This document shows positions 29,101 through 64,000 of a DNA stretch of 64,000 bases, piece after piece. The DNA comes from Toxoplasma gondii ME49. Taxonomy: Eukaryota; Apicomplexa; Conoidasida; Eucoccidiorida; Sarcocystidae. Position 1 is the first letter of the stretch. Each line of letters begins with the position of its first letter. Below the pieces are notes generated by a model. The model ran no database searches, was not told the DNA's origin, and saw only the letters and a list, made by a program, of their open reading frames with translations. The translations under genes were made by a program, and so were the position numbers. The stretch lies in contig NC_031478.1 of assembly GCF_000006565.2 (NCBI RefSeq), positions 2,029,874 through 2,093,873 of the forward strand, in the 5' to 3' direction.

Positions 29101-29840
29101 TCAGGCGTTGTAGAGGCCGACCCTGAACAGTTCTGCCCAATCCAGTTCAAGAAAGCATGACTGAAAGCAGCAAAAAACTGCTTGCAAAGACTTGCGCTCT
29201 TGTTGGCCACCCGGGCAAAACCTGGAGCAAAATTCGTACCTGAATTTCGAAAGTACTTGGACTTCCTTCTCGAACCCAGCTTCCCTGGGCTTATGCAGCC
29301 ACTTAACAGCCACAGCTACTCCATCGCGCAACACGCCTTCATAGACATTTCCATATGCTCCCTGGCCCAGAATCACCGAGAACCCTGCTGTTGCCGCGTA
29401 AAGCTCCTGAAACCGAAAGTTTACAATTACACGGCTGTACCTGTCTTTCAGATATTCGCAGATCCTGGTAGAACTCTGCGGAAACGGTGTAATCTACCGA
29501 CCACACCAAATGTTTACTCGCAGCACTACTGAAGCTGCACTGTCTCGGAACTCAGCCCTGGGCGAAAGCTGGAAACCCCACTAACAATATGAAGAATATA
29601 AGCCTATGGCGGGACCGGCGCCATGCTCCTTCTGATATGTTTGCGTGGCACATGAGATAGTCTTACTTCATATGAATACTCCAGTGAAATGTCATTGAGA
29701 GCGTCGTCCTCTGTGCTTCGACTAGCGTTTTCGCCGTCGTCATTCATATTGTCACCTTTCACGGGCTTCTCCATGTTCCTCGCGTCCACAGCCTCCACTT
29801 CGTTATCCCGCTGCTTCACGCCCGGCGGTCCGGTTTCCAT
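26163..29840 (-). CDS. Plant-type receptor-like cytoplasmic / IRAK-like protein kinase (TKL group)
   Basis: Eight exons: 29840-29667, 29406-29240, 28872-28766, 28210-28065, 27673-27567, 27085-27001, 26672-26542 and 26247-26163. All phases agree; 1002 nt gives 333 residues. The ATG at 29840 lies in GCCATGG with an in-frame TGA just upstream. Residues 1-58 are acidic and the rest is one kinase domain. The glycine loop GQGAYGNV is at 72-79, preceded by [10 protein letters not shown], which resembles the E-L-x-x-A-T-x-x-F of plant RLKs. Catalytic residues are Lys93, Glu106, HRD 181-183 with Lys185 and Asn188, and DFG 201-203. [10 protein letters not shown] follows, then [17 protein letters not shown]. 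The gatekeeper is Tyr (LVYE, about 135), as in IRAKs and plant RLKs. The last exon supplies subdomain XI (RHRPPF, then IVQQLQLL). All catalytic residues are present, so it is predicted active and cytoplasmic. No signal peptide or membrane helix is seen. Confidence 0.92.
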
Positions 29841-35800: not shown

Positions 35801-36101
35801 TTTGCTTCTCGTCAAGCTCTTAACCGTGCTTGGCAGCCACGTTTTTCAGTGAGATCGTCATATCTGTAGCTGAACTGGTAGCGGCCACCGTTCCAACTCG
35901 ATTGACGTGATCTTTGGCCTTTTTGAGGAAGGGGTAACACTTACACGAGGAGTTTTAGAGGCCTCTTGCCTCCGCCGGACTCTCGTGTTGGCCTCGAGTC
36001 TTCTCGAGGCACCGTAGCTGTGTCTCAGCGCTTTGTGCGAGGGTCGGAGAAAGTCGAGCTCCGGTCCCCTTTTCTCTCCTTCACCCACATCGAGAAAAAC
36101 A
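29841..36101. other. About 6.3 kb divergent intergenic region between the kinase and VPS13
   Basis: The kinase and VPS13 are transcribed away from each other, so both promoters lie here. One exon-like piece is visible on the minus strand at about 30,466-30,309 (acceptor TTCTTTCAG, Ser/Pro/Glu-rich frame, donor GTAAGT), but it does not join the kinase start in phase. It could be a 5' UTR exon or part of another transcript. The stretch 31.7-33.9 kb is more AT-rich with dense stops. A 231-codon open frame from an ATG at 34179 to 34874 (+) has no recognisable protein character. No tRNA or rRNA gene was found by eye. Confidence 0.5.
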
Positions 36102-39100
36102 ATGTTTGTCGGACAAGTGCGCAAGTACGTAGACTCTGCGTTGGAGTCAGTCCTTTCGCCTTTCGTGGATTCCTTGGACAAGGCAGGATCTCTAGCCCGA
36201 AAACCGAAAAGAAAGGGGACATGTCCTTCCCGAGATCGAGATCCTGCGTCAGGAGGCAGTGGCCTCCCCTCTCGTTTGAGGACGACCAGGGATAGTGACT
36301 TCGTTGAGAGGAAGGAAGAAGAAAAACTAGGAGAAGTTTCCTCCGGCGAGGAGGGATCTGAGACACCGCGGGTCTGGTGGGCCCGCTGGAGACGTAAGAA
36401 TGAAAACCAGAACAAGAACCCAAGGAAATCAGCAGCAGATGGGTCACCTTTGTCAAGCGATGGGGACCCATTTCCACAGTCCGGCGTCTCAACAGATGCA
36501 CGTAGGCGGCGTACAAGCGATCTAACAGATGATGGAGTGACCAATTCTGGGGGGAGGACAAGTCAATATCGAGGTCACCGGAGCTCCACCGATGGAGCAA
36601 GTCCCAACAGAAAGGGGACTACCCAATCGAGCTCCGATGAGGGTGACCCGTCGTCACCTTCTTATGACGCCAGCCCGAAATGCGCAAGTGTCACAGGCAG
36701 CGGTGACATTGTCTACACAAATATCAAGTTACGCCGAGATCTTCTGTCGTCCTCAGGTCTCCCCTTCGTCCTGTCGGAAGGAGTCATCTCCTCTCTGCGC
36801 ATATCTATACCTCCTCTGCTATCTCTCGCTCCTCTTGCCGTTTCTGTTGAAGGTGTGCTCTTGTTGTTCACTCCTCTTCCTGGTGAACTGTGGAGTCCAA
36901 CTGAGGTTCGCCGTCGCGCCCAACAACATCGACGAGCTCTCATTGCAGATCTTGAGGAGCAAATTGAAAGTCAGGTCAGGGGAAGTCTCCGCTCGAGAAC
37001 GGTGCGTAGCCCCACCTCGCACACTAGCGGACTGTTCGGCAATTCAACGTCGTCTCATTACTTAGCCACCGAAAGGCATCTGTCCGGATATGGCACGCTA
37101 GGTTCAGCAGCTGATATGTCCGCTGTGGGTGGCTCGAACGCTGTCGGCGCAGGCACCGTGGGAGGAGTGGCAGGCGTGACAGGAGGTTCTCCTAACAGGG
37201 ATAGAACCAAATCTACAACAGGAGGCGGTGGAGTGCAGGCCTATATTCGTAATAACATCGAGCAGTGGCTCCTAGGGCGAATCAAGGTTAGTATTCGTAA
37301 TATTCACATTCGATATGAACACCCAGGAGGTGTGAGCGGTGCGCCGTTTTCGTGCGGCATAATCATCCCTTTCGTTCTTCTCAACCGGGGGATGCCTGAC
37401 GCGTCGTCTGCCAAAGTGACGCATGCAGCCGCTGCAGCGGCAGCGAAGGAGAAAGCGGAACGAGAAGCGAGGGAGCAAGACTTCAAGAACAACCGCGGGA
37501 ATCCGGCACACGTGAGCGAAGACCCACGAGAGCGCGAAATTAGTGAGTCGAAACGAAACCAAGCTGTTGACGGAGAGCGATACCGGCAGAGTTCGATCAC
37601 TGCGCGACAGGCGGCGTTGGTGAGAGGAGGCCCGAGTAGCAAGATGAGGGGTGCGGTGGACCTTGGCGACGCAGTTCTGGGCTCCTCTTGGAGAGTGGAG
37701 GAAGAAGGACAAGACAGTGTAAGTGAGGGTAGCGGGGCTACCGGCAAGAAAGAACCAGTACGTAAGATTTTGCTTTGCAGCATTGCCATGTACTGGAACA
37801 GCGGGGATACGCGGTTGATAAGCGGAAAACCGAAGGCGGTAGAGCAACTTTTCCTGTTAGCGGCACCTATGTGGTCGTCATCGCCCGTCAGCGCAGCACG
37901 GGCTGCCGCTGCGGATGCGGAAGCTGCCGCTACAGAACTGGCTGCCGGAGCAGCAGCGGGGAAAGGAAGAGATTGGCTTCAAGGAGCGCAGGGTGTGCTT
38001 CTGCGCACCCCACCCGAGCCGCCGTTGCCTGTGTGTACCAGTATCGAGCTGGGCGGCACTGAGGGCGCCGGAGATCGAGCGAAGCAGGAAGTCGTTTCGG
38101 CGCCCCTGTCGCATGCGGCACTTGCAAGGACTCGACAGACATCTCGAGGCTTGGAGGGATGCAGCTGGTTGTTGCGACTCTCATTTTTCGAATTCGCCGT
38201 GGTCCTGCAGCAGAGTGAGAAAGAATCACCTCACAGCTTTGACATTCGTGTTAACGGCCACGTGGACCCGGTCATTTTGCATGTGAACCGAGACATGCTC
38301 ACGGACATGCGGTCGTTGCAAATGCATATGAACGGTTTTTCTTTTTTCACAAAGTCCGTGCTGGTCACTCCCGCGTTTTTTCGCGGTCTGCTTGATAAAC
38401 AGAAAAACGATTCCGCTGGCGGACTTCGGCTCCCTGGGCGGATCGAGAACGTTACCAGCACCGCTGCCGGGTCGGTTTCGCGGGAACCAACTCGCGGTGT
38501 ACTTCTGCAGGCCTCGCGGTATAGCGGCAATGAATGGGTTCCCTCTGCTTGCCAGCGGTTTGATGAATCCGCCAAGGATTCTGAAAGGGGGGCATTTCTT
38601 TCCGCTCCGCCACCTGACCACCGGCGAAGCATGGCTACCCTGCCCTTTTCGGCTTCTTCCAGCCGGTCCATCCGGGCTCGGCACCGGTGGAGATTTGCTG
38701 TAACAGGTGTGTGCTGGCTGCGGCAGCTACAGAAACTCGGATCATCGATGCAGTCCCTAGTTTCACCTCCCGTCCTCACGATTCTGAAGCAGCAGCGAAC
38801 TTACATTGAGCTCCGCTGTAGATATCGCTGTGAGGTGGCCAAGGCTCGCGCAGCCCGAGCCAATGCTTCATTGCTTTCTACAGTGTACGGGAAGCCTTCG
38901 AGATCTGAATCAATGCAGAAGGAACTTGCTAGAGAGCTGCGCAAAATGGAAGAAGATGACCTTCTTTACCTGCCGACAGAGCTGGTGCTTCTGTGGTACC
39001 GTCAAGCAGTCCTCGATCCTGGCCTTCCCCCCTACGACTTGTTTCTTCTCCACCGGCATTCGCATGCCGAGGGTGACGAAATCGAGACAGACTCCGAAGA

Positions 39101-42100
39101 GGTGCAGTCGCAGACAGCTGCAGATACACAGGCAGTCACCGGAGAAGAAACTGCGGAAGCTGCAGCAGTGAAGGCCCAAAAAAGTGGACGCCACGAAGTC
39201 ACTTTCGCTGCTGAACATCTAGAGTCGAACATGCCGCGTTCACTGCCACGCTCTCATATACTTCCGAATCCACCTTTTGGGTTCGGAGCCATTGCTCACA
39301 GTCTGCCTCCTTTGTCTATATCTCCCTTCACCTTTTCAGCCTCGATGCTCCCTCGCAGGATTCGACGGATGCTTCGCAGTTTGTTTCCGGGCGATGACTG
39401 GCAGACAACGCCCCAGGGAAACAGGTTGCCTGCCAGTCGCAGATTGTTTCAGGAGTTTCCGCGGTCTTCGCACCCGCCTCACCACATGCACTACCGTTTC
39501 TGGAGCTCCCCTAACCGCTGGGTGGGCTTTCGTTCTGGGGTCTTGAATGGGCGTTGGACCGGAGAGGCTTCAGGCGGCTCACTTGTCGGACGTCCGCCCG
39601 GCAGTGCGGTTAAGGAATGCGCGAACACATATCTAATTGGTGGCGGATGGAGGCGGGACCCACGCCGATCCATGATCGGGAGCAATGCGGATGCTCAAAG
39701 TGATGACGGAACCTCGTTTGCTGCTCATCGAGGAGATGCCTCGTTCACTGACCCGACTGGCGACAATGGACCGAACGGGTTGTCCTATCAACAGCATCAT
39801 CCGCAGGTCACCGGCTCTGCATTTTCCAGTAGAAGTGCTGCCAGCATTGGGTCTGGCGAAATGGTGTCACATTGGGGAGAACAAGGAATACAGATGTTGA
39901 GAAATCCGCCTCCTGTTTTGCCTGCGTCGAACACACCGTATGCTGTTTCCGTGGGCTCGGATGACGTGGCCTTGCGACACATGGGAAGTCTAAAGACAGG
40001 AGATCCAGGACTGCTACAACAGTCTTCCACTCTACAAGGTCTGTCGCGATGGCGGCTGCCTCAGGACGTGGTGCGCGGCTTTCTTCCGGCCTACGAAGAC
40101 ACCACACGCTATCCGTGGGAAGAAGGGCAGCAGACGTGGCAAAAACAACAGACGCAGCTGCATCAAGCAGCAATGCTAGAACTCCAAAGCAGTACGCCAG
40201 GTGGCACTGCGTTGGAACATAACCCTGAACCAAGAAATGCCGTTGGAAGGTATCCGCCAACGCTAGGCCCAGACACATCGTCCAGTGAACGGTACTGCCG
40301 AGGCCTGAAGCCGTCTCAACCGAGGACAGGTGCTTTGGCTTCAACATGTAGCCAAGCAATGAGTAGGGTCACGGGGACACATGTTCGAGGGTGTCGTGGC
40401 GCGGTTGCGCATGGAGTGGCAGGTACCGCGGTACCCAAATCCTACCAAAGATCCGTTGGTGTTTCTGTGGCGCTTTCATTCAGCGCTGTCGGCGTCCGGT
40501 TACACCGGATAGAGGAGCAGAACCTCCGTAGACGATCACAGTGGCGTTTGATAGATTATTCTTTGGGTGACGAATCGGCTGGAAGAAGGAGCTGTGGTGC
40601 TCCTTCGGTGGAGGTGGAGGTGCATCGACAACGAACCGCTAAGCTATCAACATACCGGACACACGATCCAAGGGAAACAACACGACGTTGGGAGGTAGTT
40701 CCCGAAGAGGCGCGTCGTACAGGGGTTTTATTGTCGCATCAGCGGACGATCGTTCCACGCACCTCCTCTCGCAGCCCTCGAGCTCGGGGACTGTCTGCGC
40801 GTGAAGATAGACACCGATTTCATGATGCACCTGGATGTGCTTCAGGCTGGGCTGGTGGCGCTGGGGCTGCACCGCTACGTTTCCTACAGACTCCGCGAGA
40901 AGGAAGAAGGCGACCAGTCAGAAGTCCATGTCGCCTAACCTCTGAAGCACATGACTCCCACGCCCGCGCGTTTCTGCCCCACGCCGAAGATCGCCCATGG
41001 GCTAAAGATATTGACTTGGTGTTTTACGACTTAGCTTTTCGCTGGGAACTCCTGGGTCCCTATATTGACAGAGAGGGTGAGGACATGACTTACTACGGGG
41101 CACTGTGTGCCGGCACAGGGTTGGGGACCGGTTCGCGTGGCACGACCCCAGTTCGGCCCGGGTGTGTCGGATCAGCAGGTCGTCTGCGCGGTGGGCAACT
41201 CGCAGTGGACTGGCCCAGCTCGGAGTGCGACCAAGTTTTGACACCTGCTGTTCGAGACAGCGGCAGAATTGTTGTCTGGGAACTGTCTGTGGCCAATGGA
41301 TTTCTGGGGCCAGCAGAACCAACTTGGAATCACACCATACCGCTTGATGCCGCCTTCTTCGGCCTTCTTCCACCACCGTGCTCCATTCATCTTCTGCACA
41401 AGATTTATTCTGAAGCACTGTCTGGATTCGTGCCTGATTTCTCACCTGGGCAGCGCTGTTCCACCACCGCTTCCAGACGACCAGATGGAGGCGTCAGTGA
41501 CGTGACAGAAGGACCCGCTCGGACCCCACTCCGCCGCGTCCAGACTGGTGTACATGGGCAGTCGACAACTGGCGCTGGAAGGAGAGGGTCGTCGCCAAGC
41601 CGAGAAGTGCTGACAGGCGTGGCCCGAACGGACACCTCAGGTCCTGGAGTACAATTTCTCACCAGTGTATCGCAAAATGCTAACCAATCAACCTGGGGAG
41701 AAAGCGATTCAAACGACGGACAGAGTAGCTCCCCCTCGCAGACGCGCCTGAGACATGTGCAGCAGAACCTGGTCGCAACGAAACTGAGTCGATCGAAGTC
41801 AAACGTCCACAATCTGCAACCAAGAGATCGATATGTGTTTCCGTCAAAGTTCGTAGGTTCACGAGTAGCGCTTCCTGGAGTGGGAGCTCCCTTCTCCCTA
41901 CGACGCTCAGGCACACTCGCCCCAAGTCGACTTCATCAACCCAACACAGGCGTCGAACCTTGCTCTGGCAAATCCAGTTCGTCACAGCCTCCTGATGCGA
42001 CCTCAACCGATGGCCAGACCAGCGACCACCGTACTCCGGTGTCGAACCACCCTTCACCACGACACAGACGAGACACTCGAGAAGGTATTCGATCATCCTA

Positions 42101-57100: not shown

Positions 57101-60100
57101 GAACAGCCTTCCTGTCATGCGAGACATCTATGCGCCGATTGCCGAGCCTCACGTTGAGGTGGAGGAAATATGGGAGCCTATTGTTGATGCATTCGTAGGA
57201 TCGTTCCGAGCTTCTCTAAGAGCAGATTCTGCTGATATCGTTTTCACTGTTTCGGACAGGCCACTGTCCCAAAAGTCTTTTTCTCTGGTTGGCCTCACTC
57301 CCCGCCTGGCACCTCATTCTATGTCACCTTCTTCAGCAGTTGCGGCTGACAGCTTCCGTGCCAAGGCACGACTTGCGGGCACAGCATCCAGTAACATGGA
57401 GAAACGGACAGCAACGGAACTGAAATGCGACGGTACCGTTGCCAGCCGTGGCATGCAAGATGCCAGTTTCATGAGAGGGTTTCTGCAGAGCAGCTCTTCG
57501 CTCTCTGCAAGCGTTTGTGAAAGGTCACCGGACTTGAATAAGCAAGGTACTGTACGCGTAGCATTCGCGTCCTGGCATTTACAGACTGTGATCCATCTTC
57601 TGACGCACCTTCGTCTGGAGTGGTCAAAGGCTGCGGAGGAAAGCAACCGCGAAAACACAGCTTTCTGGGCTCATGCGGCCGCCGAGTGGCTGCTTCGATC
57701 TCAGTGGGCACACGACGACCAAGCCATAGATGAAGATCCAGCCGCTGAACGCGTGTCCTGTCATGCTGAAGTTTGCACAAGATGGCCAGTCGTTGGTGAC
57801 CTACTCTATCCCAGATCCGTCACAAATCGGGGAGAAGAATGGTTTTCGCTCGTCGGTCATGACGAGGGACCTCATTCGGGGTGCCTCCCGAAGAATGCGT
57901 CGCTTATTTCAGTCGATAGTCGAGGCAACCAGATTATGCACTTGCAGCCCGGTGAGCGTGCATCGGCATGTAGGGTTTCTTCCGTTACCTCTACTACCTT
58001 GCCAGCGTCAGGAAGTCTATCCAGCGTGGGACAGCGGAATGTCGCCTCTAAGAAAGTCCCGAGAGATGAATTGCTGAAGCGCATGGGGCTGACGAGGGAA
58101 ACGAGTGCTTCGGTTTGGGGTGCCGGCTCGCCCGAAGCGTCTGATAGTTTACAGCACGCCTCCAACGTCTACAACCCAGCATATGAGGGTATGCGCTCGA
58201 AAGGTACCGCTGTCAGCTCACGCGAGCAAGACGTTATTCCACGTCGCCAAGATTGTTTGGCTCTGCCGCGTTCGCCTCCTAATAGATTTATGCTTGGTGA
58301 TGGACGTTATCTAAGCGAGGATAGCCCTCGTGTAATCCCGTACTGCTACCTGCCATGTGTGACCGTAATGGACATCAAGCAGGCGAAGGGGCAGCATAGT
58401 GGGAGCGCAGGTGAGTATTGCCTGTCTAGTTGCGACAACAACCCGGGCATCTATCGCCTGCGAGACTTTGCGGTGTTTCTCCACAATGCATCGGGACTGC
58501 CTATGCTAATTTCCATCGAACCTTCGCCAGGACTGTTGACTGTAGACACTTTCCAGACGAAGAGAATCGCGTCGGCCTCATCACCAAGGCACAGTTTCGC
58601 AGACCCACCAAACGAACGCGTCGAAAGTCGCACAGACAGCAAAAGAAGCAGATCTGTTCGACTATTGGCTCCTGATCAGGTGGTGGCTCTAGACGCTTCG
58701 TTTTTCTATGGAGATCCGCAGACTCGAAGTGACCATCGAAGCTGCTTGTTGCACTTCGTAGCCGTGAACCATATGGAGCCTGAGGTAACAACCTCTGGTC
58801 ACGCGCATCCAGTTTCTGCAGCGCGAACTGCCACTCTGAGAAGGAGAGGTCCACTACCGACAGTACAAAAGATGAGAGAAAGGTCAAGCAACGACGGGCT
58901 TAAAAGGTTGCTCAGAAGAAGGAATCGTCTGTGGCTTCACTACGTCAAGACGAAAGGTGGCCGATGGAGGTGTGCGTTTCCGCCTCGTTTGAGAGTTGCC
59001 TCCAACCGACAAAGATGCGCCTCAAATAGTCGTGGAGATCGGAGCACCCGCTGTCACAGCCTTGTTCGGGCGGCTCTGGCGACGCCAGAGGTGTGGATGT
59101 GCGTGGAGTTACCCGTCGTGCCTTCCGCTGCTGTAATCCGCCTGCCTGTTGTTCAAGGCCTACATGCACCTCTAAATGAATCACCATCAGTGCACACGGG
59201 GGGTATGGGACAAATGAACACTCCAGCTACCGTGGACCCTTATTACGAGGATACGTTGAAAGGAGGTGATGCAAGCGACATCCACCTGTCCGTGTGCTGC
59301 ATTCAGCACTTGCTGCTGGCCCGAGCGGTGGTCAACGGGGGAGCCACATCTCCAGATGAGCAACAGCAGCTGATCACCATCGGTGCTCCTCTGACATTAA
59401 GAAACCTTACGCCGTTCTCTCTCGCATGCCAACTGGGCGTGGTCATGCCGCAGTTAAACGCTAGCAGCAAGGGTCAGGTAACAGGGGAGGGGCGCGATCG
59501 CAAACGCTTTTCTCGATCGGTTGATTCTTGTGGTTACCTAGAGAAGGATCGTGCTACAACCGGAGGGACAGCTGCCACCACTGTTCACGAGCAGCCGCCT
59601 CAGGAGGCACGTGATAACGACAGCGCTGCTTTGCAATGTTTTGATGACGACGAGGTCAACCTTATCCTTCCAACGACAGAGCAAGGCTCCCACAGTCACC
59701 CTCCGACATTCGAAAAAACAGAACATGTACAAGCCTGTGGGCAAGCGGGTTTTGCCGGTCCAGAGGACCGACAAAGAACTGCACCCTTGGTGATGCCTGC
59801 GATGCCCCGACGCAGCGAGGCGGCAAGCGCGACCCATGTCGTGCCATCGTTAACTCGGGTCCTGAAAAGAAGTCGGAGAAACCAGACCCTCCGACAGTCC
59901 GCATCAGCTCGAGTGGGAAAGAGGATTTTCCTACGGGAATTTGTTTGCCCTCCACGGGGCGGTGCCTACAGCTTGTCTGCCATGGCACTTGAGACTGGGG
60001 ATAATGATTGTTTCCACGACGCTTCACTGGCTCAAGGTATGAAGAGCTCAACCGCGACGCCGAGGGCGCCTGCAGGCGTCGAGCAAACGCCTTGCCCTTC

Positions 60101-63100
60101 GCGCTGCGGAACAGAGCACGTGAGGTCGATAGGGAAGATCGTTTATATAAGACCACTCAGACCTTTGATTTTTGACGCTTCCACGATGCTGTCTCTTAGG
60201 GTGCAGCTTCGGCAGACGGGTGGCTGCCACTCCGGATCTTTTTCAGGACCAGGCAATCTGTGGAAACATGAATGGCAGCGTCAGATGTTAAAATTATCAA
60301 ACCGTGTTTCCTGGAGTGGGCGCAGAGAGGATGAAGGGAGCCATGTCTGGGCGTCAGGCATATCATTCCAACCTGCTGGAATGCCAGGCGTGTTTGGTTC
60401 TATTATCACGCTGCGCGAAGAAACAAAGAAACGGCCGTCGCTAAAAGAGCTCCGACAGTTGTCAACAGTGTCTCAATGGAAAGCAGCATCCCTCAGGCTC
60501 CGACGTTCATCTAGCAACACGTCCTCATATTGCATCGGTGATTCCGGGCGTGTTTTCTTGCTCGCGTTTTACTCTTGCACGATGTGGAAACCCGCGGCAG
60601 TCACAATTAAAAACAGTGATAGTGAGAGACGCATCGATACCCCGTGGCTTCTCCCACCCTTCACCGCCTGCTGTTGCGGCCCGTCTCGTGACCTCGCGCT
60701 TGGCCACAACGAGAAGCAAAGAGACAAAGTTGCGCCTGGTTCGTCAAGTTTCATGCGGTTAGAAGATCTGTTCGACGACTGTGATGCTAAGGACCGAGAA
60801 TTGCAGGAGCGCTGTCAAAGGAGCACTTGGGTCGTGAAGGTGCCCCTTCGCATCTGTAATCACTTGCCCTTCCCCGTCACTCTGCACCTCAAGGATGCGA
60901 CAGCTCCGACGAACACGCAACGAGTTGAATGTCACAGTGACGCGACCTCTAAGTGCACCGATGCTGGCAGCAAAAAGGAGAGCAGCGCGTTGCCTCTGAA
61001 ACCGAGTGGGACGAACTGCCGAGATCCTCGTCACGCGCGCCAGCCTTCGTCTTCTGCTTGTATGGCACCCTCTGCAGCTTTCGGCAACCAGTCACACCCT
61101 GATGAATTTCGCCCGCTCGACGAGATGGCTGACCGCAAGCATGGTATGGTAACACGGGTTCAAGCCGCCGCAGCAGCTGCTGGGAGGGGATCCTGTGAAG
61201 TCATTGTTCCATCCCTTCAGCAGCGTCTTTGCTGCGGAGTCCATGGCGCCGAGGTATTGCTCGCCTCGATGAAGCTCCCCCAATCTAGCTGGAGCGAATT
61301 CTACCGTGTGTGGGGCGTGACTTCGCCGGTGGGTCAAAAGAACTTTGAGGTTGCACATGGCCCAAAGGACAATATCTGGTGCACTGATGACGGACATGCA
61401 AAAGGGGCCAGTGCCATGGCGTCGTCCGAAGTTGGTGACGGAGCGACACCGTCCTATGGATCATCTGGAGGCGCACACAGGGGTAATCAGCGCGCAGGTG
61501 GTAGAATTGGTATGGCGTATTCGAAGAGCCCAATACATGAAGTCCAAGTGATTCGAGTCGCTGATCTCCACAAGCGGAAAATATTCGAAGTTCGAGTAAC
61601 TGTCATTTACTCCCCATTTGACCCCATGCTGCCGCCGCATTTTCCGGGGGTAGCGGCTGCTTTGACCATGATCATTTCCGCGCCTGTCTGGCTGTCTCAA
61701 CGGTGCATTCAAGCACCACTGTCCTTCGTGCCTCTAGCCCCGCCACGTGAGGCAGCAACCAGCTGGGAAAGGGCGAGCGACCTCGCCCGTGGCTTATGCA
61801 CAGCACCGCAGTTCAGTGAGACTGAATCAATCGCAGATGAATGCTGCCTCGCTAGTGCCAGCGGATACGCCGAATGCGAGGTCGACACCCCACTTGCCAT
61901 GTACAACGCTGGGCGTTTCCTTACGCAGGGATCACAGCCGAGGCATCGTCAGTCTCGCAGTAGGTTGCTTTGTTCGATAGGCGTGCCAAGGCGAACCAAG
62001 TATGGAATAACGGAAAGTGTCTCAGGAAGGAGGAAATGGCGGAGGAGCGTTGTACATGGAATAAAATGTTCAAATGGAGCTCCTGCGATCGGAAGAGCCC
62101 TCCCGCTTCCGAGATGGACCTATGTAAAGCCAGTATCGGGCGGCGTTGCGTTTCGCAATCCCTCAAATAATCGCAGCGGCCATGAGGACGCACCTTTGCC
62201 GGCACATGGACATAGGGTCAGGCGCTCTCCAACGAGCAGCCGCCGTAACATCAATGTTGGAGACAGCAACTGCATTATCGATGAATCGAGGCGCTCCACT
62301 ATCAGTGAGCTGACAGATGGCACCATTGCAGCTAGCCTTGCGGGGGTTGGTGCAAGCCCACTCTTGTGCGCCTCTGCGAGCCTGGAGGTCGGCTGCTGCT
62401 TCCTGAGACGCCTGGAACAGGCCGCATGGGACGACCATGAACACGGACAAGGTCTGTCACAATGGGGCTCCACACTAGGTGGCTGGGGAAGCCGAAATGG
62501 GGGGCGACACCAGCACAGATATCCATCCCAAGGGCGAACGACCCGTTCGGCGTGTTCTAATGCGGCCACATCTGAGAGAAACGAGGAAATGGATGGCATG
62601 GCTTCAACCGTCTGCGGTTTTCACGGCCCCGGTCTCCTTGCCTTTCGTGCGTGTCGGGGTAGGGAAAACAGTAAAGCTCATACGACGTCTGATAGCTGGG
62701 AAGGGCAGAGGAGCGAGTCTTCTTGTCATGCCACAAATTCCTCTAGACAAGGCAGGGAGCAACTGTTGTTGCCTGGAATGTGCTGGCCTCCGGGTTGTGG
62801 GGTCCAAAGCGCCGAATCTGCATTTGACACGGTGCAATGGTGTCGCCGTCGCCTAGCCGCCACAACTGCCATGAACCAATTCATTCTCAGCGCAGGTGTT
62901 CTAGATATCCGGGTGCTACTAGATTCTGGTTCTCTGCTCTCGTATTTTTCAGTGTTACACAGACGTGACACAAAACAAGAGGGAACTATCTCGACAGAGC
63001 AAGCCGATGGTGGAAGCTCGTGCCTGGATCCGCATTGCTCCGCCTTTTTACCTTCTACCATTTCTCCACCACACGCGGCTCTACCGTTGAGAGTCGGCTG

Positions 63101-64000
63101 TTACGACATGGTCTTGCAGCAGTCCGGAACGTGTACTCCGGACACACATCTGCTTTGTCTAACGATGTTCCCGGCGTTGTTTCACAACCTCGTTTCTTCC
63201 TCTCTCCCTCGCTCAACTCTTCGCGGAGCTCCGAGGGCCTCGTTTGTGTCTGGCTCCAGGCTGACTCGAGCTGGGACATCCCTGTCCTTGTACGGAGCAT
63301 CGGACACCTGGTCGGAGAATGAGCACGCCGACAACAGCAATGGTGACGCGAAGGAGGATGAGATTTTGCCTTGTCTGTCGACTGCGACTCCGCTGCCAGC
63401 CGAAGAAGATCGCTCTGCGGCTTCCTTTCCCAGAGCAGCCACATCGTTCCCCTGTTACGTGTCATCGGCCACTTCGCTGTCTACTGCCCTTTTGTCAGCG
63501 TCCTCTTTGCTGACAGCTCGGTCGGTGTTGCTCCAGTGCGTGCCTCGGTTTGTCTTCATTAATTCTCTAAATGTGGACTTGGAGATTCGGCAGGCTAATG
63601 TGAGCGTGCCTTTTGCCATGCTTTCTTACTTCCCTCCTGGATCTCACAGTTACGGGTTTCACGACCGCGGCAGCAAGGATTCCCCTTCAGCATTCGCTTT
63701 GAATCGAAGACGCGATTCCGCGATGTGGCCCGATAGGGGGGTTGGTGGGTCTTTCGGTATTCCAGGTGACGACGATGAAGTTGAACAAGAGATGTCCTTA
63801 TTCAACACCGTATTCATGACTCCCTCGTCCCCCATTCTCTTTTTGCCAAAGGGTGCTGCAGCAGTGTTTCATTTTCCGGATCCAACAATGCCGTACGCCG
63901 TCAATATTAGACTAGCGTCTCACACGTACTCCTCACCCCAAACGACCAGATTCCGTCGACCGCAGACACATAACCTGCACGTGCATCAGCCGGATATCTA
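36102..64000 (+). CDS. VPS13: Giant VPS13 (chorein-family bridge-like lipid transfer protein), partial, C-terminus beyond window
   Basis: The frame from the ATG at 36102 (ACAATGTTT) stays open to base 64000: about 9,299 codons with no intron. The N-terminal chorein region is split by inserts. MFVGQVRKYVDSALESVLSP starts it. After about 170 Ser/Arg-rich residues come DIVYTNIKLRRDLL (about 202) and VISSLRISIPPLLSL (about 227). After another insert comes the hallmark IRNIHIRYEHPGG (about 398-410). The middle contains beta-groove segments such as FSAKLDGLTISF (near 50,530) separated by long low-complexity tracts, plus a Gln-rich coiled coil (about residue 4090-4140). Repeats of the VPS13 adaptor-binding (VAB) type with their conserved Asn occur at residues about 7462 (LHNASGLPM), 7768 (LRNLTPFSL), 8253 (ICNHLPFPV) and 9154 (FINSLNVDL). 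VPS13 proteins move bulk lipid between organelles at contact sites. Yeast and human members are about 3,100-4,400 residues, so this one is more than twice that before its C-terminal ATG2-like and PH regions. I read codons directly through about 43.5 kb and at many later points including the last. Confidence 0.93.
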   Translation, partial: MFVGQVRKYVDSALESVLSPFVDSLDKAGSLARKPKRKGTCPSRDRDPASGGSGLPSRLRTTRDSDFVERKEEEKLGEVSSGEEGSETPRVWWARWRRKNENQNKNPRKSAADGSPLSSDGDPFPQSGVSTDARRRRTSDLTDDGVTNSGGRTSQYRGHRSSTDGASPNRKGTTQSSSDEGDPSSPSYDASPKCASVTGSGDIVYTNIKLRRDLLSSSGLPFVLSEGVISSLRISIPPLLSLAPLAVSVEGVLLLFTPLPGELWSPTEVRRRAQQHRRALIADLEEQIESQVRGSLRSRTVRSPTSHTSGLFGNSTSSHYLATERHLSGYGTLGSAADMSAVGGSNAVGAGTVGGVAGVTGGSPNRDRTKSTTGGGGVQAYIRNNIEQWLLGRIKVSIRNIHIRYEHPGGVSGAPFSCGIIIPFVLLNRGMPDASSAKVTHAAAAAAAKEKAEREAREQDFKNNRGNPAHVSEDPREREISESKRNQAVDGERYRQSSITARQAALVRGGPSSKMRGAVDLGDAVLGSSWRVEEEGQDSVSEGSGATGKKEPVRKILLCSIAMYWNSGDTRLISGKPKAVEQLFLLAAPMWSSSPVSAARAAAADAEAAATELAAGAAAGKGRDWLQGAQGVLLRTPPEPPLPVCTSIELGGTEGAGDRAKQEVVSAPLSHAALARTRQTSRGLEGCSWLLRLSFFEFAVVLQQSEKESPHSFDIRVNGHVDPVILHVNRDMLTDMRSLQMHMNGFSFFTKSVLVTPAFFRGLLDKQKNDSAGGLRLPGRIENVTSTAAGSVSREPTRGVLLQASRYSGNEWVPSACQRFDESAKDSERGAFLSAPPPDHRRSMATLPFSASSSRSIRARHRWRFAVTGVCWLRQLQKLGSSMQSLVSPPVLTILKQQRTYIELRCRYRCEVAKARAARANASLLSTVYGKPSRSESMQKELARELRKMEEDDLLYLPTELVLLWYRQAVLDPGLPPYDLFLLHRHSHAEGDEIETDSEEVQSQTAADTQAVTGEETAEAAAVKAQKSGRHEVTFAAEHLESNMPRSLPRSHILPNPPFGFGAIAHSLPPLSISPFTFSASMLPRRIRRMLRSLFPGDDWQTTPQGNRLPASRRLFQEFPRSSHPPHHMHYRFWSSPNRWVGFRSGVLNGRWTGEASGGSLVGRPPGSAVKECANTYLIGGGWRRDPRRSMIGSNADAQSDDGTSFAAHRGDASFTDPTGDNGPNGLSYQQHHPQVTGSAFSSRSAASIGSGEMVSHWGEQGIQMLRNPPPVLPASNTPYAVSVGSDDVALRHMGSLKTGDPGLLQQSSTLQGLSRWRLPQDVVRGFLPAYEDTTRYPWEEGQQTWQKQQTQLHQAAMLELQSSTPGGTALEHNPEPRNAVGRYPPTLGPDTSSSERYCRGLKPSQPRTGALASTCSQAMSRVTGTHVRGCRGAVAHGVAGTAVPKSYQRSVGVSVALSFSAVGVRLHRIEEQNLRRRSQWRLIDYSLGDESAGRRSCGAPSVEVEVHRQRTAKLSTYRTHDPRETTRRWEVVPEEARRTGVLLSHQRTIVPRTSSRSPRARGLSAREDRHRFHDAPGCASGWAGGAGAAPLRFLQTPREGRRRPVRSPCRLTSEAHDSHARAFLPHAEDRPWAKDIDLVFYDLAFRWELLGPYIDREGEDMTYYGALCAGTGLGTGSRGTTPVRPGCVGSAGRLRGGQLAVDWPSSECDQVLTPAVRDSGRIVVWELSVANGFLGPAEPTWNHTIPLDAAFFGLLPPPCSIHLLHKIYSEALSGFVPDFSPGQRCSTTASRRPDGGVSDVTEGPARTPLRRVQTGVHGQSTTGAGRRGSSPSREVLTGVARTDTSGPGVQFLTSVSQNANQSTWGESDSNDGQSSSPSQTRLRHVQQNLVATKLSRSKSNVHNLQPRDRYVFPSKFVGSRVALPGVGAPFSLRRSGTLAPSRLHQPNTGVEPCSGKSSSSQPPDATSTDGQTSDHRTPVSNHPSPRHRRDTREGIRSSYTSSQASSPRLESGGSADLDGDSVSWKGAVEGRDLLAVRSELEESLTSVSSVLMHCSCSPSTFVCELAMPTVILSPALLRLTACISSIFDSPSHPSAKLKLSDQRQGTMQGRIHHHSALVISTTSGKHLQRENSFPAVMEIDPALFLPLEPPLYIPVYPPPSSSPALAACLMAADTAAEKEQEQEAVAPAMAAFGATESTATNEADPFASNAQREPQDRSSGGGLPLNARAPVLSSLSGACREMFRTVFDRPGRGVRGRGSKRETSRDGHQKADGTDSKAFLAEGTVQQDYHGNSGTHDSDSEILHARVHGNISRNSLQSHASRGAGRLAIDGLKETAAAAAARASTIVDAAANGVIAAISRASATANVLLVQTKAAAHTRHSAFSNSRRCKRVSALLTLKHLSLQHRHGVADSVPRHSRTLQVQLSNLLVLLPAAVAGMPKAIQRARRKENVIEALAATPEVPLRPSEEVASKRLPTEGNSIACDRSGDDVHIVSSLSPETTLAVAVSPALPLMAPPSTSAPSILVSCHKVALVSTPQTPSSPDVKAAAVEGLQVTVAPQLLQLLQILREHTTPFDRNGAEFQETPANGPSQSFDPGVPTEALLRDHCGGVMGRRGRIARMERPPMPRSGDPFAPSDEASHRVRDQDRPGRSATGSREGKFETLRTRWPRSGRGACYLVLSCPGVAAEMTSRPPNTEFSRADGIDREVTIRVGADIDTLFLSENLQHPHQADLQQVHNIRSGSASPASLLLFPGTDTSRFSSRPFLLLPLPPIPVCCVDAHSLHLLLRITATWNATLRLAELQSNLVFVPFYIRPAPLQLWASPMLVPESPWWAPTRSRSTSGQRETLTVSSPTPSSSGFDTRDRLLPDGFFQSPASVKSATSVPASPRRARPLQPSAIVSGPSAAPACFPSHRHELNASGAMSLRRDSAEPNVGRTDVGPASSTHTPISLFLDISEWSMCCASGWYVFRGCHAGAECCESQKPAEGEDRGVSYADHESSATDNRGPLGSFSPRSEERWEPSYFSRNTIPRRLRTREGTVADQEPAPPCESFGGSSHGNQDGRCFPRQVFWCEWRCHPRHCRGTIYHPCGLDESAAGTICCRFRPVQCPLTLWIYRHPDDLVPLVVCHPLAVRADKCWSTRCVLARGGSGVCSSGGNSLPSLRVSFLATGPAPVDFVVKSERRSRLHRKRSVDSDRMVGHSDRLMSPNKTHPNHEGPGSKRNVSSQSATQRLETMASVHPTRFLTTLDRGLAAPSTSVVDGCTHFRSSNEGNISPGQRGFTFWTWSFDVPDDQEWRWVEKRCCLRRCQGPQKSFRRCTGCCSSAAHIMDVSRIASSMADGNAVSSETAFESKQTTDVRDQSGVSLRDEHEPRMASSLGTRCEYPCRRLSTLSISSLTYEAAPSGACNISGVSRRTISEHSPATHMDTWSAAAVKNDPLSLTQPGLIESNLFPSSSEVASSIGYGAGAGGCSASDPTCLKARSPRVSVSSATGNALGRDSIGSAGGLTAPVDNSKYERENRSHDDALQGALARITCVLRGALVKLLIDRLAVQLLPPSAPLIALANVCAHENPGGVFGSHEKSGFTCTARQHAAGPSRNRGLGDYQRLPSRRLLMQLQEQQELWHQQQLQRGSLVLSVVGVAVSATVSPLLTPPASFDFLLRSVVAENAHVIPESRRRILLRPSLQTLSLCSGSPADCRGGEMDPRRTAESRFSADTTSGPVIAPGSIPTILSAGIGDDTEVESRRARRAQNYFIRGGIQSNRARLSLSKVDVFLAPQTIQEVCGAVAPLVGVLATAAAFSRSLQAVLQETNAPLRRQPKFKAGTDDGGSEGRAQLHEGSRKKQPQWFVEVQSKGVVISLLQCYTNTSLCIVDIGDCAYTGSTSHRFHLSSINVVSGGLGRPIFEAHNQREASDHGKGNEKYAPSSGNVSSGGRTGAGASLCEMPGGQAPAEAAAADFTHATTREQCYGGVVGSLRDSGRSPDSLGHQRARYASDRGIMQENRFGDGCVDGAPLARGNKALGTRILPWLEVIYSPQAERTATVQERLQQQGYLASAVSSVSLYVADSSCFVRIPELILISHFVSDCRTAVQEVLERLRRVARHQQMQLQQIQQARLESLRQKMHMDELQRQAMLSQHRLRHQQGVPSVFLRTEGITPVGGTQNSRMNHGFLCTPEKDDGARKPRRDLRAELPECNQSGAQHPFDGAHGILESAKERKRPTSRGDLRVLPALFLIRVKVSFPTLFVAADKPEKPPPVVVSLGLLQVSTHLHAQVTLPPPAFDMRAAVAEVSEKVSKGSTVVPVTSAEMNSSPAASTGQRRVSADSGLRQKVESSGSYARELPDECRTEAVAGESRVDFLVAGSTPPGSCTDTAARYEEWNLPVAGSFSVPACEFQITYENAQIYLSGPSGALFTEMNKRNESTGRPSLDNRVSVGECFTLNAEVWKTLRTGCSMYAAGNARDRGVPARREIEPVKNLKWAASQGEFRLSGTGGLPYGSTGHFEWQTHCCKSPLWQERAKLFLRSQKCDLCVCVRCSYIHLRVAPQLVAALHANAQMDVGCAPQLPLLQAVVASDDSEPGAGETEDDFAGGILRGRRRDSRRTERHRYVDSKAPESRMATLSTGRGEGVSPGMNGTDAARSAASVGGEGTDADALTRGVALGVQGLGECETMAGQVWDGNGSVSGRLGGHNVEDGTDERKSRDSLKLDVGIQQDGGTPGNNFEDSSEVENLGEPDYDRHSSDGDGSETESEEDFFLEASTDDEVNMAVEDQLLALVNDASKVCKDGALGDASSGLLQKHLSLNWHFPARRLSLLFSAKLDGLTISFCDAQAKVTLVHVNAKNVHMWDVGTINTRVLTIESISITESISSSDRTPSSVLSFSKHNSPQASPCTTTTSSPSGAGTVDGPSSEARPSRDCTSRSQTNGNAVLPGGEGTNGKTPAYSSEICLCRIPLMLVPSLATSFLRTADDRHLRDDSADDSSGLSWKSDFGLGQTDRVDLSTYPETGDAAASLFPTAACVLVGNPSIVVAPALLSALHFCLTFPVYTFGSENGCQHRTGLGAQRSCIPFSHPLECAFMPSSTIDAAVGGGAVRFARRQEYDIYAAIHSQALPQGLESRSSLKRFETMTSVSGGAMSAEVEHLAEPANKSNGANVAEVEPARRNTRSAWREMLLDSVGNHGRHHVPDRGSGPSGGESGSEYSKGPRDLACRSHYVNGMMGIRARDRVDLRGNSQCRFCMNGRGKRLQAAFLPEGHSRPGRRLTAASSMEPIRPPHMVNMVPDLAIPAHSSRNNASPAAGGPASSGPESVVLPASFESSTPARRHITGRRPRRSSRVALGTRGFVCSRNDYPSSPVDANTLGSWTFDNSEAFPGSVEVSDDCEDLYVPHPRARRSGFGYTSRGRDSCRSLHRTWGRDPSACNGSIDFVDSLTQLASGFRVPSRLSTVRDRMLAEDPEVTAYPDSTAVGNEGRTAPQKSGAGVTSYDAALFLHPCLAAVQQINILSSWLAGEFRRQQIHKLESTAARAISARRAQRQIQKQRRGQKRADVGRVSVYPRVDVDSQLEFGRHRAEHHLEGDGEMEKDEHEQTTMDETMQKSESLSKSGDSAVHREEEGVPPHQTPNPALTSFDRNQPLCLPERHFDHKDNLTSEQERQFAYLSHLIRLLGLGFVRTGQVEGAGIARQRAAVTLSAEYVHFSVEELRVELKAMPASFILMTSVELTRSSHLLHFGLTATDRYVDLGRQQPRGTLERHARGEGLNADVHWPDLVQEEVSEGADPYSQGEFLGNASEAQSQRRIKDTQSDPAIASVSEPGQNARRQVLLSVGRPTESREATFRPGQKKWAATQIRQEAEAGIREGNASSETPWSRARFDPDVECLASTPALQIRVSDTSWADGSRAPCLELPSRSGGQRMPRSPISATADIAKGVGGGDRAASRRVMELSSDSGIRPVSGQHAHQGQTPCPLCQFEEISNEKVAAGCPDGWYGSTDNIHLDLSAEEWEQDIIDVEAGAAEMRATVFSSDAVSCVLSNFSITVHKDVSLSRLNAQISGASSAFAVASACNATPLAIIPAAPDGNGSSEVLPTYCHSILPSLRTSFSYHFGSPPFQFLSNCIWNYRRSSANKVPFTGGALLGRPPGESPEPLHDKCDILSAIASCGRQRMPAGRGTVSQVGRVTQPDDEQSNDRLKRASTTAEHSTNKMARPCATSRLNVPLFLMLPTTMLLSPDTLGETAASWLFPVYEDIPLQAVSEECADAVTVEHRRRVRHGEHPSETLPSKSTRLAPLSPLSPPIHNVVVSFSPIELRIRTWDIERLQRAVSLMFADKQRQKLQVLSAFERNQRRQQVSHLGDLRSSVVNTSLTSDSVAFQDSQNLARMSTSEQPLPRRSDDAAVHGPGACSSEAPTWKQQPDSRLINEPTHFYRKPGCTNKNAVLDEHGAVTPVVSPAQERYPNRRAFWCIGEDEAYFHHSPLTDPIRRGGSSQYQTDAQAMESPLALPEGYPNIVAWQGSWIGEDSTSLSNDVSASGPVAMNLHAASPAVAPTSSLASPLLGLCGFAGAPTQLLFNLPYFSCTILYDVFEGDLETNRSLPICRISERSLPGSGSKNVRMTPDSQTNTVGVLSESSLGRYGAGKRSQLRSVQQSRRPARKRCQAHAGVQQDSSSCCTHWVCVGEPRTHGAHPLMRITIKHIRAAGTNTLLRSDYTPSVVESSSAATLLIPEHFRRSGADARLAHRHAPECRRTVETSGHVSTRDDTKEDLSGARHLLMLLEKQLVQQKEDLMKRGAEAEIMKLGLLSDNLLVNGEAVVKVEAYVMARRSLVRNSMVTASPEPAQTGLLRNPSQKKSRPVTSNPGSETGDSSRRAGFECGLQAQRQHDKVCLPNGNVSARWTREEGSPVSEAALGVLTTVRSERSARERKEDAKQRIAVGKRVTADLPRTRQPGTSAWLLKVAGAYGRTGTDKGGETTPVNSEPFSEINSCFVAAERCQGELESAQRCSSQQTSSAGRENSLPVMRDIYAPIAEPHVEVEEIWEPIVDAFVGSFRASLRADSADIVFTVSDRPLSQKSFSLVGLTPRLAPHSMSPSSAVAADSFRAKARLAGTASSNMEKRTATELKCDGTVASRGMQDASFMRGFLQSSSSLSASVCERSPDLNKQGTVRVAFASWHLQTVIHLLTHLRLEWSKAAEESNRENTAFWAHAAAEWLLRSQWAHDDQAIDEDPAAERVSCHAEVCTRWPVVGDLLYPRSVTNRGEEWFSLVGHDEGPHSGCLPKNASLISVDSRGNQIMHLQPGERASACRVSSVTSTTLPASGSLSSVGQRNVASKKVPRDELLKRMGLTRETSASVWGAGSPEASDSLQHASNVYNPAYEGMRSKGTAVSSREQDVIPRRQDCLALPRSPPNRFMLGDGRYLSEDSPRVIPYCYLPCVTVMDIKQAKGQHSGSAGEYCLSSCDNNPGIYRLRDFAVFLHNASGLPMLISIEPSPGLLTVDTFQTKRIASASSPRHSFADPPNERVESRTDSKRSRSVRLLAPDQVVALDASFFYGDPQTRSDHRSCLLHFVAVNHMEPEVTTSGHAHPVSAARTATLRRRGPLPTVQKMRERSSNDGLKRLLRRRNRLWLHYVKTKGGRWRCAFPPRLRVASNRQRCASNSRGDRSTRCHSLVRAALATPEVWMCVELPVVPSAAVIRLPVVQGLHAPLNESPSVHTGGMGQMNTPATVDPYYEDTLKGGDASDIHLSVCCIQHLLLARAVVNGGATSPDEQQQLITIGAPLTLRNLTPFSLACQLGVVMPQLNASSKGQVTGEGRDRKRFSRSVDSCGYLEKDRATTGGTAATTVHEQPPQEARDNDSAALQCFDDDEVNLILPTTEQGSHSHPPTFEKTEHVQACGQAGFAGPEDRQRTAPLVMPAMPRRSEAASATHVVPSLTRVLKRSRRNQTLRQSASARVGKRIFLREFVCPPRGGAYSLSAMALETGDNDCFHDASLAQGMKSSTATPRAPAGVEQTPCPSRCGTEHVRSIGKIVYIRPLRPLIFDASTMLSLRVQLRQTGGCHSGSFSGPGNLWKHEWQRQMLKLSNRVSWSGRREDEGSHVWASGISFQPAGMPGVFGSIITLREETKKRPSLKELRQLSTVSQWKAASLRLRRSSSNTSSYCIGDSGRVFLLAFYSCTMWKPAAVTIKNSDSERRIDTPWLLPPFTACCCGPSRDLALGHNEKQRDKVAPGSSSFMRLEDLFDDCDAKDRELQERCQRSTWVVKVPLRICNHLPFPVTLHLKDATAPTNTQRVECHSDATSKCTDAGSKKESSALPLKPSGTNCRDPRHARQPSSSACMAPSAAFGNQSHPDEFRPLDEMADRKHGMVTRVQAAAAAAGRGSCEVIVPSLQQRLCCGVHGAEVLLASMKLPQSSWSEFYRVWGVTSPVGQKNFEVAHGPKDNIWCTDDGHAKGASAMASSEVGDGATPSYGSSGGAHRGNQRAGGRIGMAYSKSPIHEVQVIRVADLHKRKIFEVRVTVIYSPFDPMLPPHFPGVAAALTMIISAPVWLSQRCIQAPLSFVPLAPPREAATSWERASDLARGLCTAPQFSETESIADECCLASASGYAECEVDTPLAMYNAGRFLTQGSQPRHRQSRSRLLCSIGVPRRTKYGITESVSGRRKWRRSVVHGIKCSNGAPAIGRALPLPRWTYVKPVSGGVAFRNPSNNRSGHEDAPLPAHGHRVRRSPTSSRRNINVGDSNCIIDESRRSTISELTDGTIAASLAGVGASPLLCASASLEVGCCFLRRLEQAAWDDHEHGQGLSQWGSTLGGWGSRNGGRHQHRYPSQGRTTRSACSNAATSERNEEMDGMASTVCGFHGPGLLAFRACRGRENSKAHTTSDSWEGQRSESSCHATNSSRQGREQLLLPGMCWPPGCGVQSAESAFDTVQWCRRRLAATTAMNQFILSAGVLDIRVLLDSGSLLSYFSVLHRRDTKQEGTISTEQADGGSSCLDPHCSAFLPSTISPPHAALPLRVGCYDMVLQQSGTCTPDTHLLCLTMFPALFHNLVSSSLPRSTLRGAPRASFVSGSRLTRAGTSLSLYGASDTWSENEHADNSNGDAKEDEILPCLSTATPLPAEEDRSAASFPRAATSFPCYVSSATSLSTALLSASSLLTARSVLLQCVPRFVFINSLNVDLEIRQANVSVPFAMLSYFPPGSHSYGFHDRGSKDSPSAFALNRRRDSAMWPDRGVGGSFGIPGDDDEVEQEMSLFNTVFMTPSSPILFLPKGAAAVFHFPDPTMPYAVNIRLASHTYSSPQTTRFRRPQTHNLHVHQPDI
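48360..48530 (+). other. Gln-rich coiled-coil segment inside VPS13
   Basis: Within the VPS13 frame, residues about 4088-4143 form a long helix-favouring run (LERLRRVARHQQMQLQQ, then ARLESLRQKMHMDELQRQA) with a heptad-like spacing of Leu/Met and almost no Pro or Gly. Canonical VPS13 rods are beta structure, so this is probably an inserted coiled coil that projects from the rod, perhaps for oligomerisation or adaptor binding. That role is inference. Confidence 0.6.
58440..63660 (+). other. VPS13 adaptor-binding (VAB) repeat region
   Basis: Inside the VPS13 frame, short motifs with a strand, an Asn, and then a second hydrophobic strand recur. The Asn codons are at 58485, 59403, 60858 and 63561. 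A further repeat near 61660 reads IISAPVWLSQRCIQAPLSF with Ser where Asn is expected. The conserved Asn is typical of VAB repeats, which in yeast bind Pro-x-Pro motifs of organelle adaptors. Spacing here is about 306, 485 and 901 residues, against about 100 in yeast, so the repeats are separated by large inserts or some were missed. Confidence 0.65.

Follow-up and report, generated by a model that had tools for sequence, protein, structure and literature searches.

The giant open frame and its surroundings

The window analyzed here, a 64,000-nucleotide stretch of the Toxoplasma gondii ME49 genome, ends in a single forward-strand frame that is stop-free at 36018..63998 (9327 codons, counted stop to stop) and still open at the window edge, in agreement with the 27.9 kb and more than 9,300 codons given in an earlier note on this DNA. 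From the ATG at 36102 it encodes 9,299 residues up to that edge. In the genome record the same frame reaches 10,865 codons, with a stop at window-equivalent 68,613, and comprises 10,837 residues from ATG 36102. The frame is real and bigger than the earlier note had it, and its product is more than twice the length of the largest human VPS13. T. gondii is reported to have seven proteins of more than 10,000 residues, the largest of 17,226 (PMC10993292), and the size seen here is therefore not unique.

Across the same stretch, the five other frames contain 228-434 stops each, with a longest open run of 261 codons. Codon-phase statistics, computed without stop codons over 460 windows of 300 nt, preferred the giant frame in 411 and another phase in 49, grouped in 16 runs; when stops were counted, the giant frame was preferred in 450/460. 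The coding score exceeded that of a non-coding model in 393/460 windows. The strongest off-phase run (stops excluded, minimum -19.6) lies at 45042-45581 (+), where the next phase is preferred; part of it coincides with a 261-codon open stretch in another frame (44647-45432), and the main frame is Cys-rich near it. The start methionine is shared with two annotated relatives, from T. gondii RH88 and Besnoitia. No tandem DNA repeats were found within the frame (the two arrays of the window both lie before 15.2 kb), and comparing the protein with itself revealed no internal repeats beyond the level of 8 shuffles. An Rfam search of the window gave no match, and a viral-contig scan gave 4 pattern matches and no relative. 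An assembly artefact or pseudogene was considered and rejected on the basis of the codon-phase signal, the first 1,397 residues kept in RH88 and the chorein parts kept in Besnoitia.

Past the window edge, a consensus splice donor (AAGG/GTAAGT) is found at 68,476, with candidate acceptors that include two with TCTTCTGCAG ends, at 68,599 and 68,660. On the 3' side of this donor, other phases contain open frames that are 750, 190 and 652 codons long. Judging from these signals, the gene is probably spliced near its 3' end and has a giant first exon rather than being intron-free; that exon would probably carry ~32.4 kb of coding sequence, or ~10,790 codons. The description "intron-free" in the earlier note thus holds within the window but not for the gene as a whole. 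By eye, the open frames past 68,476 resemble VPS13 C-terminal parts, a likeness that Pfam and the canonical HMM do not confirm: none of four open frames past the window matched Pfam at E 1, the best forward match of the canonical HMM had E 3 (reversed control, E 2.9), and a VPS13_C search was empty, as were its controls. The VPS13_C, ATG2_C and PH domains of a VPS13 C-terminus thus found no confirmation in these searches.

Homolog searches using the frame itself recovered nothing at their thresholds, and a two-row profile search found seven proteins, among them relatives in T. gondii RH88 (99%) and Besnoitia besnoiti (49%). The RH88 protein TGRH88_045390, named in its record as a chorein-domain protein, is identical to residues 1-1397 at 1377/1397 positions (98.6%, 0 gaps). 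It then exits the frame as if a 451-nt GT-AG intron at 40292-40742 had been removed, and ends 64 residues on, in another phase, for a total of 1461 aa; the RH88 annotation thus closes the gene at 40292-40935 (+) through an apparent intron. We regard this model as an automatic truncation because the intron would delete the RBG3-like strand (40431) and the frame stays open for 9,400 codons further, and the shorter RH88 splice form may occur as a minor isoform. The Besnoitia annotated model stops after 380 aa, and both models appear to miss most of the gene.

Upstream of the giant frame, an ABC-type ATPase gene, which we take to resemble SufC, lies at 4108-5783 (-) and is apparently split by an intron into 4863-5783(-) and 4108-4698(-). 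Positions 1-23 and 22-51 of the ABC_tran Pfam profile are matched by these consecutive pieces, with E values (0.0022 and 0.095) that miss the cut-off; introns, which the earlier note had ascribed to the neighboring genes in general, are in this way indicated for one of them. Other minus-strand features include the start of a protein-kinase-like domain at 29101-29493 (PK_Tyr_Ser-Thr, E 1.2e-4, 21.9 bits, just under the cut-off of 23.1), a long stop-free frame of 1322 codons at 20517-24485 that is rich in S, P and G and has no Pfam match at E 0.1, and a 306-codon frame at 13650-14570 with globular-looking sequence and no Pfam match.

A PF12624 profile search of the genome identified seven places, this locus being the third-best. 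The other chorein places are C11:4226000, C11:5725096, C8:2388100-2389432, C13:3573377 and C13:6248374; two of the seven, ~1 kb apart on C8, are probably one locus. PMC13298984 gives eight chorein candidates in T. gondii plus three by BLAST, and the count here is of the same order as that tally. A PF25036 profile search of the genome matched two other loci and nothing at this locus. Each of the two VAB places, both on C13, has a chorein place ~31-36 kb away on its own strand.

VPS13 landmarks along the frame

The chorein start proposed in the earlier note was confirmed by a PF12624 match (E 4e-9, 35.2 bits) that covers ~150 of 1317 profile positions and is below the curated whole-protein Pfam cut-off of 80 bits, and by N-terminal profile blocks that score above all shuffles. 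The top PDB sequence match was also a VPS13 N-terminus (6cbc, E 0.012), and proteins P0002 and P0003 carry PF12624 in precomputed annotation. The GD strand site falls at residue 201, vs 33 in the fungal VPS13 P0004; alignment with Besnoitia indicates that a fast-evolving insertion sits between the conserved chorein parts. Judged from its sequence, the product is a VPS13-family protein.

Downstream of the chorein domain, most mid-rod landmarks were placed by eye, and those individually significant are the N-terminal ones and two VAB repeats (Table 1). The whole canonical HMM matched the N-terminus only. Among 81 profile blocks, seven outscored every one of 40 shuffles. Four of these fall at the N-terminus and two at VAB repeat 5; the seventh, at aa 4813-4865, maps to P0004 1086-1170, away from the FFAT site. 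An automatic block chain scored 94.5, above 40/40 shuffles (maximum 86.6) and compared with 60.5 for the reversed protein, and puts several blocks elsewhere than the by-eye placement. A single-sequence model of aa 4790-5045 contained five consecutive strands at aa 4796-4844 followed by a loop, which is suggestive of one RBG unit and no more.

VPS13 proteins have their FFAT motif for VAP before or in RBG5. SEED-FFLEAST-DDE at aa 4751 was the top FFAT-like site of the frame under a scoring scheme of our own. The site fits the pattern of Plasmodium FFAT motifs given in PMC13036008, a hydrophobic position 1 in 5/7 motifs with an acidic position -1. Among the fungal proteins, FFAT-like sites were found in P0007 (RFFEAPE at 907, its best) and P0004 (SFEDAPN at 893, its third-best), and the other three canonical proteins had nothing as clear near that position.

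The VAB-like repeats that the earlier note had seen near the window end were borne out by comparison with 1000 shuffles for aa 9154 and 8253, the two top VAB-matrix sites of 10,837 residues. The score at aa 8253 was reached by the shuffle maximum in 19/1000 cases and by the shuffle second-best in 0/1000. The third-best site, aa 4235, falls outside the VAB, and Pfam's own VAB model reached only E 0.37 here. Of the six repeats with a conserved Asn that make up a VAB domain, two are significant here, with two further candidates in the window and one by-eye site past it.

Table 1. Landmarks of the giant frame, in positions of the window (aa, residue number in the protein).
Feature	Position	Strand	Basis or remark
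Giant first-exon open frame, VPS13-family gene	36102..64000	+	Continues to window-equivalent 68,613; probable exon end ~68,475
Chorein N-terminal helix, aa 1-29	36102..36188	+	27/29 identical in Besnoitia
Insertion within chorein domain, aa 30-197	36189..36692	+	49/168 identical in Besnoitia, 8 residues gapped
Chorein strands, aa 198-296 (GDIVYTNIKL...)	36693..36989	+	PF12624; 77/99 identical in Besnoitia
VPS13 signature IRNIHIRYE, in aa 388-428	37263..37385	+	Sequence/profile match
AMYWN stretch (fungal LAVYWN), in aa 553-600	37758..37901	+	By-eye alignment
RBG2 last strands and helix, aa 686-762	38157..38387	+	By eye; fungal RBG-end model gives no support
Helical RWRFAV...LLWYRQA, aa 858-975	38673..39026	+	By eye; resembles fungal AWLKFAG...FWRSLA
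Loop rich in S, R, G, P, Q, aa 986-1443	39057..40430	+	Gapless protein in RH88 model up to aa 1397
RBG3-like strands, aa 1444-1777 (VPKSYQRSVGVSV; DIDLVFYDLAF; IVVWELSV)	40431..41432	+	By eye; resembles fungal LPKDMIKYQL
RBG3-to-FFAT segment, aa 1444-4750	40431..50351	+	8.1x fungal spacing, 5.3-6.5x foldable residues; candidate place for extra RBG modules
FFAT-like core FFLEAST after SETESEED, aa 4751-4757	50352..50372	+	Predicted VAP/ER anchor; fraction 0.007 of 300 shuffles reaches score
Five consecutive predicted beta strands, aa 4796-4844, one RBG-like unit	50487..50633	+	pLDDT ~50-62
IWEPI, in aa 7008-7030	57123..57191	+	By eye; like fungal FWEPLIEPW just before VAB; 31/60 shuffles reach block score
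Candidate VAB repeat 1 (FAVFLHNASGLP, Asn 7462)	58458..58526	+	By eye, weak; score -3.2, rank 19
Candidate VAB repeat (APLTLRNLTPF, Asn 7768)	59376..59444	+	Score ~4, fourth best
VAB repeat (VPLRICNHLPF, Asn 8253)	60831..60899	+	Score 13.4
VAB repeat 5 (VPRFVFINSLNVDLEIRQ, Asn 9154)	63534..63602	+	Score 24.0, above 1000/1000 shuffles

Probable loop insertion and the length of the rod

P0004 (3182 residues) served as the yardstick for landmark spacing. The distance from the N-terminus to WEP, the latter placed by eye, is 3.80x that in P0004. By segment, the ratios were 6.2 from the N-terminus to the chorein strands, 1.6 from the strands to IRNIHIRYE, 2.9 to YWN, 2.3 to RWRFA, 1.5 to LLxYRxA, 6.4 to VPK, 8.1 to the FFAT-like site and 2.4 to WEP; from WEP to VAB repeat 1 and across VAB repeats 1 to 5 they were 6.1 and 3.7, with repeat 1 again placed by eye. 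The stretch alternates between ~1.5 in compact pieces and 6-8 over loops, as loop insertion would give. The two significant VAB repeats are 901 residues apart, whereas the six repeat starts in P0004 are 105-119 apart, corresponding to a stretch of 4.0x if the two are two repeats apart and 7.8x if they are neighbors. The VAB is not part of the rod yet is stretched equally or more, so length alone is no guide to rod length. By these landmarks, the first 1,444 residues and the VAB repeats, in which the number of elements is fixed, show roughly the same degree of stretching as the rod.

Sequence divergence separates the same compact and loop regions. Identity to Besnoitia was 27/29 and 77/99 in the chorein parts vs 49/168 and 27/92 in the two flanking loops; the second of these loops is close to where the Besnoitia model stops, and its alignment is less certain. 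The 20 differences from RH88 divide into 1 within the core (408 residues) and 19 within loops (989 residues; Fisher p 0.013, with core segments picked by us from the landmarks).

Foldable residues, counted relative to the fungal proteins, were 1.5-2.0x in the N-terminal part, 5.3-6.5x from RBG3 to the FFAT-like motif, 1.0-1.8x from there to WEP (2.1-3.1x for RBG3 to WEP combined, as a sum) and 2.5-3.6x in the VAB. On this count, the surplus between RBG3 and the FFAT-like motif goes beyond what pure padding would explain. With the N-terminal part as yardstick, the foldable-residue ratios give an estimate of 12-18 RBG modules, and any surplus would lie N-terminal of the FFAT-like motif. Several separate hydrophobic clusters were observed between aa 2000 and 4600.

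Attempts to count modules directly were less informative. Both AlphaFold models were poor (pLDDT 30 and 40). A strand counter showed no excess over shuffles and can serve as a rough upper guide only; at four thresholds it gave 1.8-2.2x the mean of four fungal rods, padding included (105 vs 45-55 at the loosest). A fungal RBG-end matrix, for which 32/40 canonical ends score >=5 in leave-one-out, found 3 sites here vs 3.9 in shuffles, again no excess. A strand-AP-helix end pattern gave 10 overlapping matches at 7 sites (100 shuffles: mean 0.8, maximum 6), and as it was written after the sites were seen it carries no weight. An unsupervised two-state composition model beat three shuffles and called only 17% 'ordered'; it is no disorder predictor and was set aside.

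Taken together, the locus very probably holds the 5' giant exon of a VPS13-family gene whose extra length is mostly flexible loops, with an estimated 12-18 RBG modules. The product would fold into a VPS13-type rod built from repeating beta-groove (RBG) modules, each of five strands plus a helix/loop. VAP, by way of the FFAT-like motif (aa 4751), would hold its N-terminal end at the ER, with the C-terminal VAB and downstream domains on the recipient membrane, and lipids would slide along the groove from the ER to another membrane. Flexible loops between strands would add length in rod and VAB alike, and extra RBG modules, if present, would sit between RBG3 and the FFAT-like motif. Supply of ER lipid to a second membrane is the probable function, on the analogy of PfVPS13L1 and TgVPS13A.

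A different way to account for the length is that the frame consists in part of stop-free introns, in which case the loops would be untranslated and the real product far shorter. The exit of TGRH88_045390 from the frame, the 49/460 windows that favor another phase when stops are ignored and the consensus-like donors inside the exon could all be read in this way, although the count of such donors is about equal to that in synonymous shuffles and is uninformative on splicing. However, the other frames have a stop every 21-41 codons, which makes a large number of stop-free introns sharing one phase implausible. The RH88 model itself retains residues 1-1397, several loops included, with 0 gaps, and its proposed intron would remove the RBG3-like strand; Besnoitia also retains the first loop in frame, with a different sequence. 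We therefore consider partly intronic loops highly improbable. A rod several times longer, with >=30 RBG modules, >60 nm and a wider contact site, appears very unlikely as well. It would be in line with the published reading of a 13,455-residue Toxoplasma VPS13 as 188 predicted strands, 38 RBG and >75 nm (Levine 2022, PMC7613979) and with the foldable surplus between RBG3 and the FFAT-like motif. Against this, the segment from the FFAT-like motif to WEP has only 1.0-1.8x the fungal foldable residues, the stretching of the non-rod VAB equals or exceeds that of the rod, and the crude strand count, which includes padding, does not rise above shuffles. A 38-RBG protein would have about three times the canonical number of strands; the crude counts of strands and foldable residues tend to lower values, if not decisively. 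A whole-protein strand total may also include VAB strands.

A moderately longer rod, with ~15-18 RBG, the extras N-terminal to the FFAT-like motif, and heavy padding in addition, is a possibility to be taken seriously, though short of even chances, and it overlaps the upper half of the 12-18 estimate. The RBG3-to-FFAT segment, with its spacing and foldable residues taken on their own, and the hydrophobic clusters within it speak for such a rod. It needs the FFAT-like motif to be at the fungal FFAT position, however, and a weak block match places it differently; moreover, the value for RBG3 to WEP lies inside the spread of the N-terminal and VAB yardsticks. More specifically, and rather doubtfully, the rod could have gained about four to six RBG modules, every one of them in the stretch from RBG3 to the FFAT-like motif, which would put the ER anchor near mid-rod and make the contact site wider than that of yeast Vps13, with the loops on top. 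On the choice between a longer rod and a padded one, which the earlier note had posed while favoring padding, landmark spacing, loop divergence and loop polymorphism lean toward padding, and the rod may be modestly longer in the part from RBG3 to the FFAT-like motif.

Comparison with known VPS13 proteins

The canonical VPS13 proteins (P0004-P0007, fungal, and P0008, nematode; 2953-3347 aa) have the same order of chorein, IRNIHIRYE-like, WEP and VAB repeats, and P0004 is ~3.8 times shorter than the giant protein over the common landmarks. RBG counts in the human proteins, as given in PMC7613979, are 12 for VPS13A, 13 for VPS13B and 15 for two paralogs. In a literature search on VPS13, chorein and bridge-like lipid transfer in Toxoplasma and apicomplexa, no title or abstract start among the matches listed settled the module number of this protein.

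Within Toxoplasma, TgVPS13A (TGGT1_291180) belongs to the same family and is anchored to the ER via VAP, as is predicted here. Its VAP-binding construct is given as aa 929-1392 (PMC13298984), whereas the best FFAT-like site here is at aa 4751 and none of the ten best falls within 929-1392. For this reason the gene is probably a different paralog from TgVPS13A, set apart by the position of the FFAT-like site. The locus could be the 13,455-residue Toxoplasma VPS13 of Levine (2022, PMC7613979), since the ~10,790 codons of exon 1 plus further exons come near that length. That protein, also a Toxoplasma giant VPS13, was read there as 38 RBG and >75 nm, and the idea of a wider contact site for parasites is already in print in the same paper.

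The P. falciparum protein PfVPS13L1 is likewise an apicomplexan VPS13 relative with a VAB near its C-terminus, described in PMC13036008 as having 12 RBG and a rod of ~22 nm, with an FFAT toward its N-terminal end; at 5988 aa the protein is about twice as long as that of yeast, by way of flexible stretches off the rod. It differs in size from the ~10,790 codons of exon 1 here. Both PfVPS13L1 and TgVPS13A are reported as bridging the ER and the inner membrane complex (PMC13036008, PMC13298984). Two published readings of giant apicomplexan VPS13s conflict: a 38-RBG groove of >75 nm (PMC7613979) vs a normal 22 nm rod with flexible stretches (PMC13036008). The present locus supplies an internal yardstick, the stretch of parts with a fixed number of elements, which favors loops and confines any lengthening to one segment, reducing the rod question to a single 3,300-residue piece.
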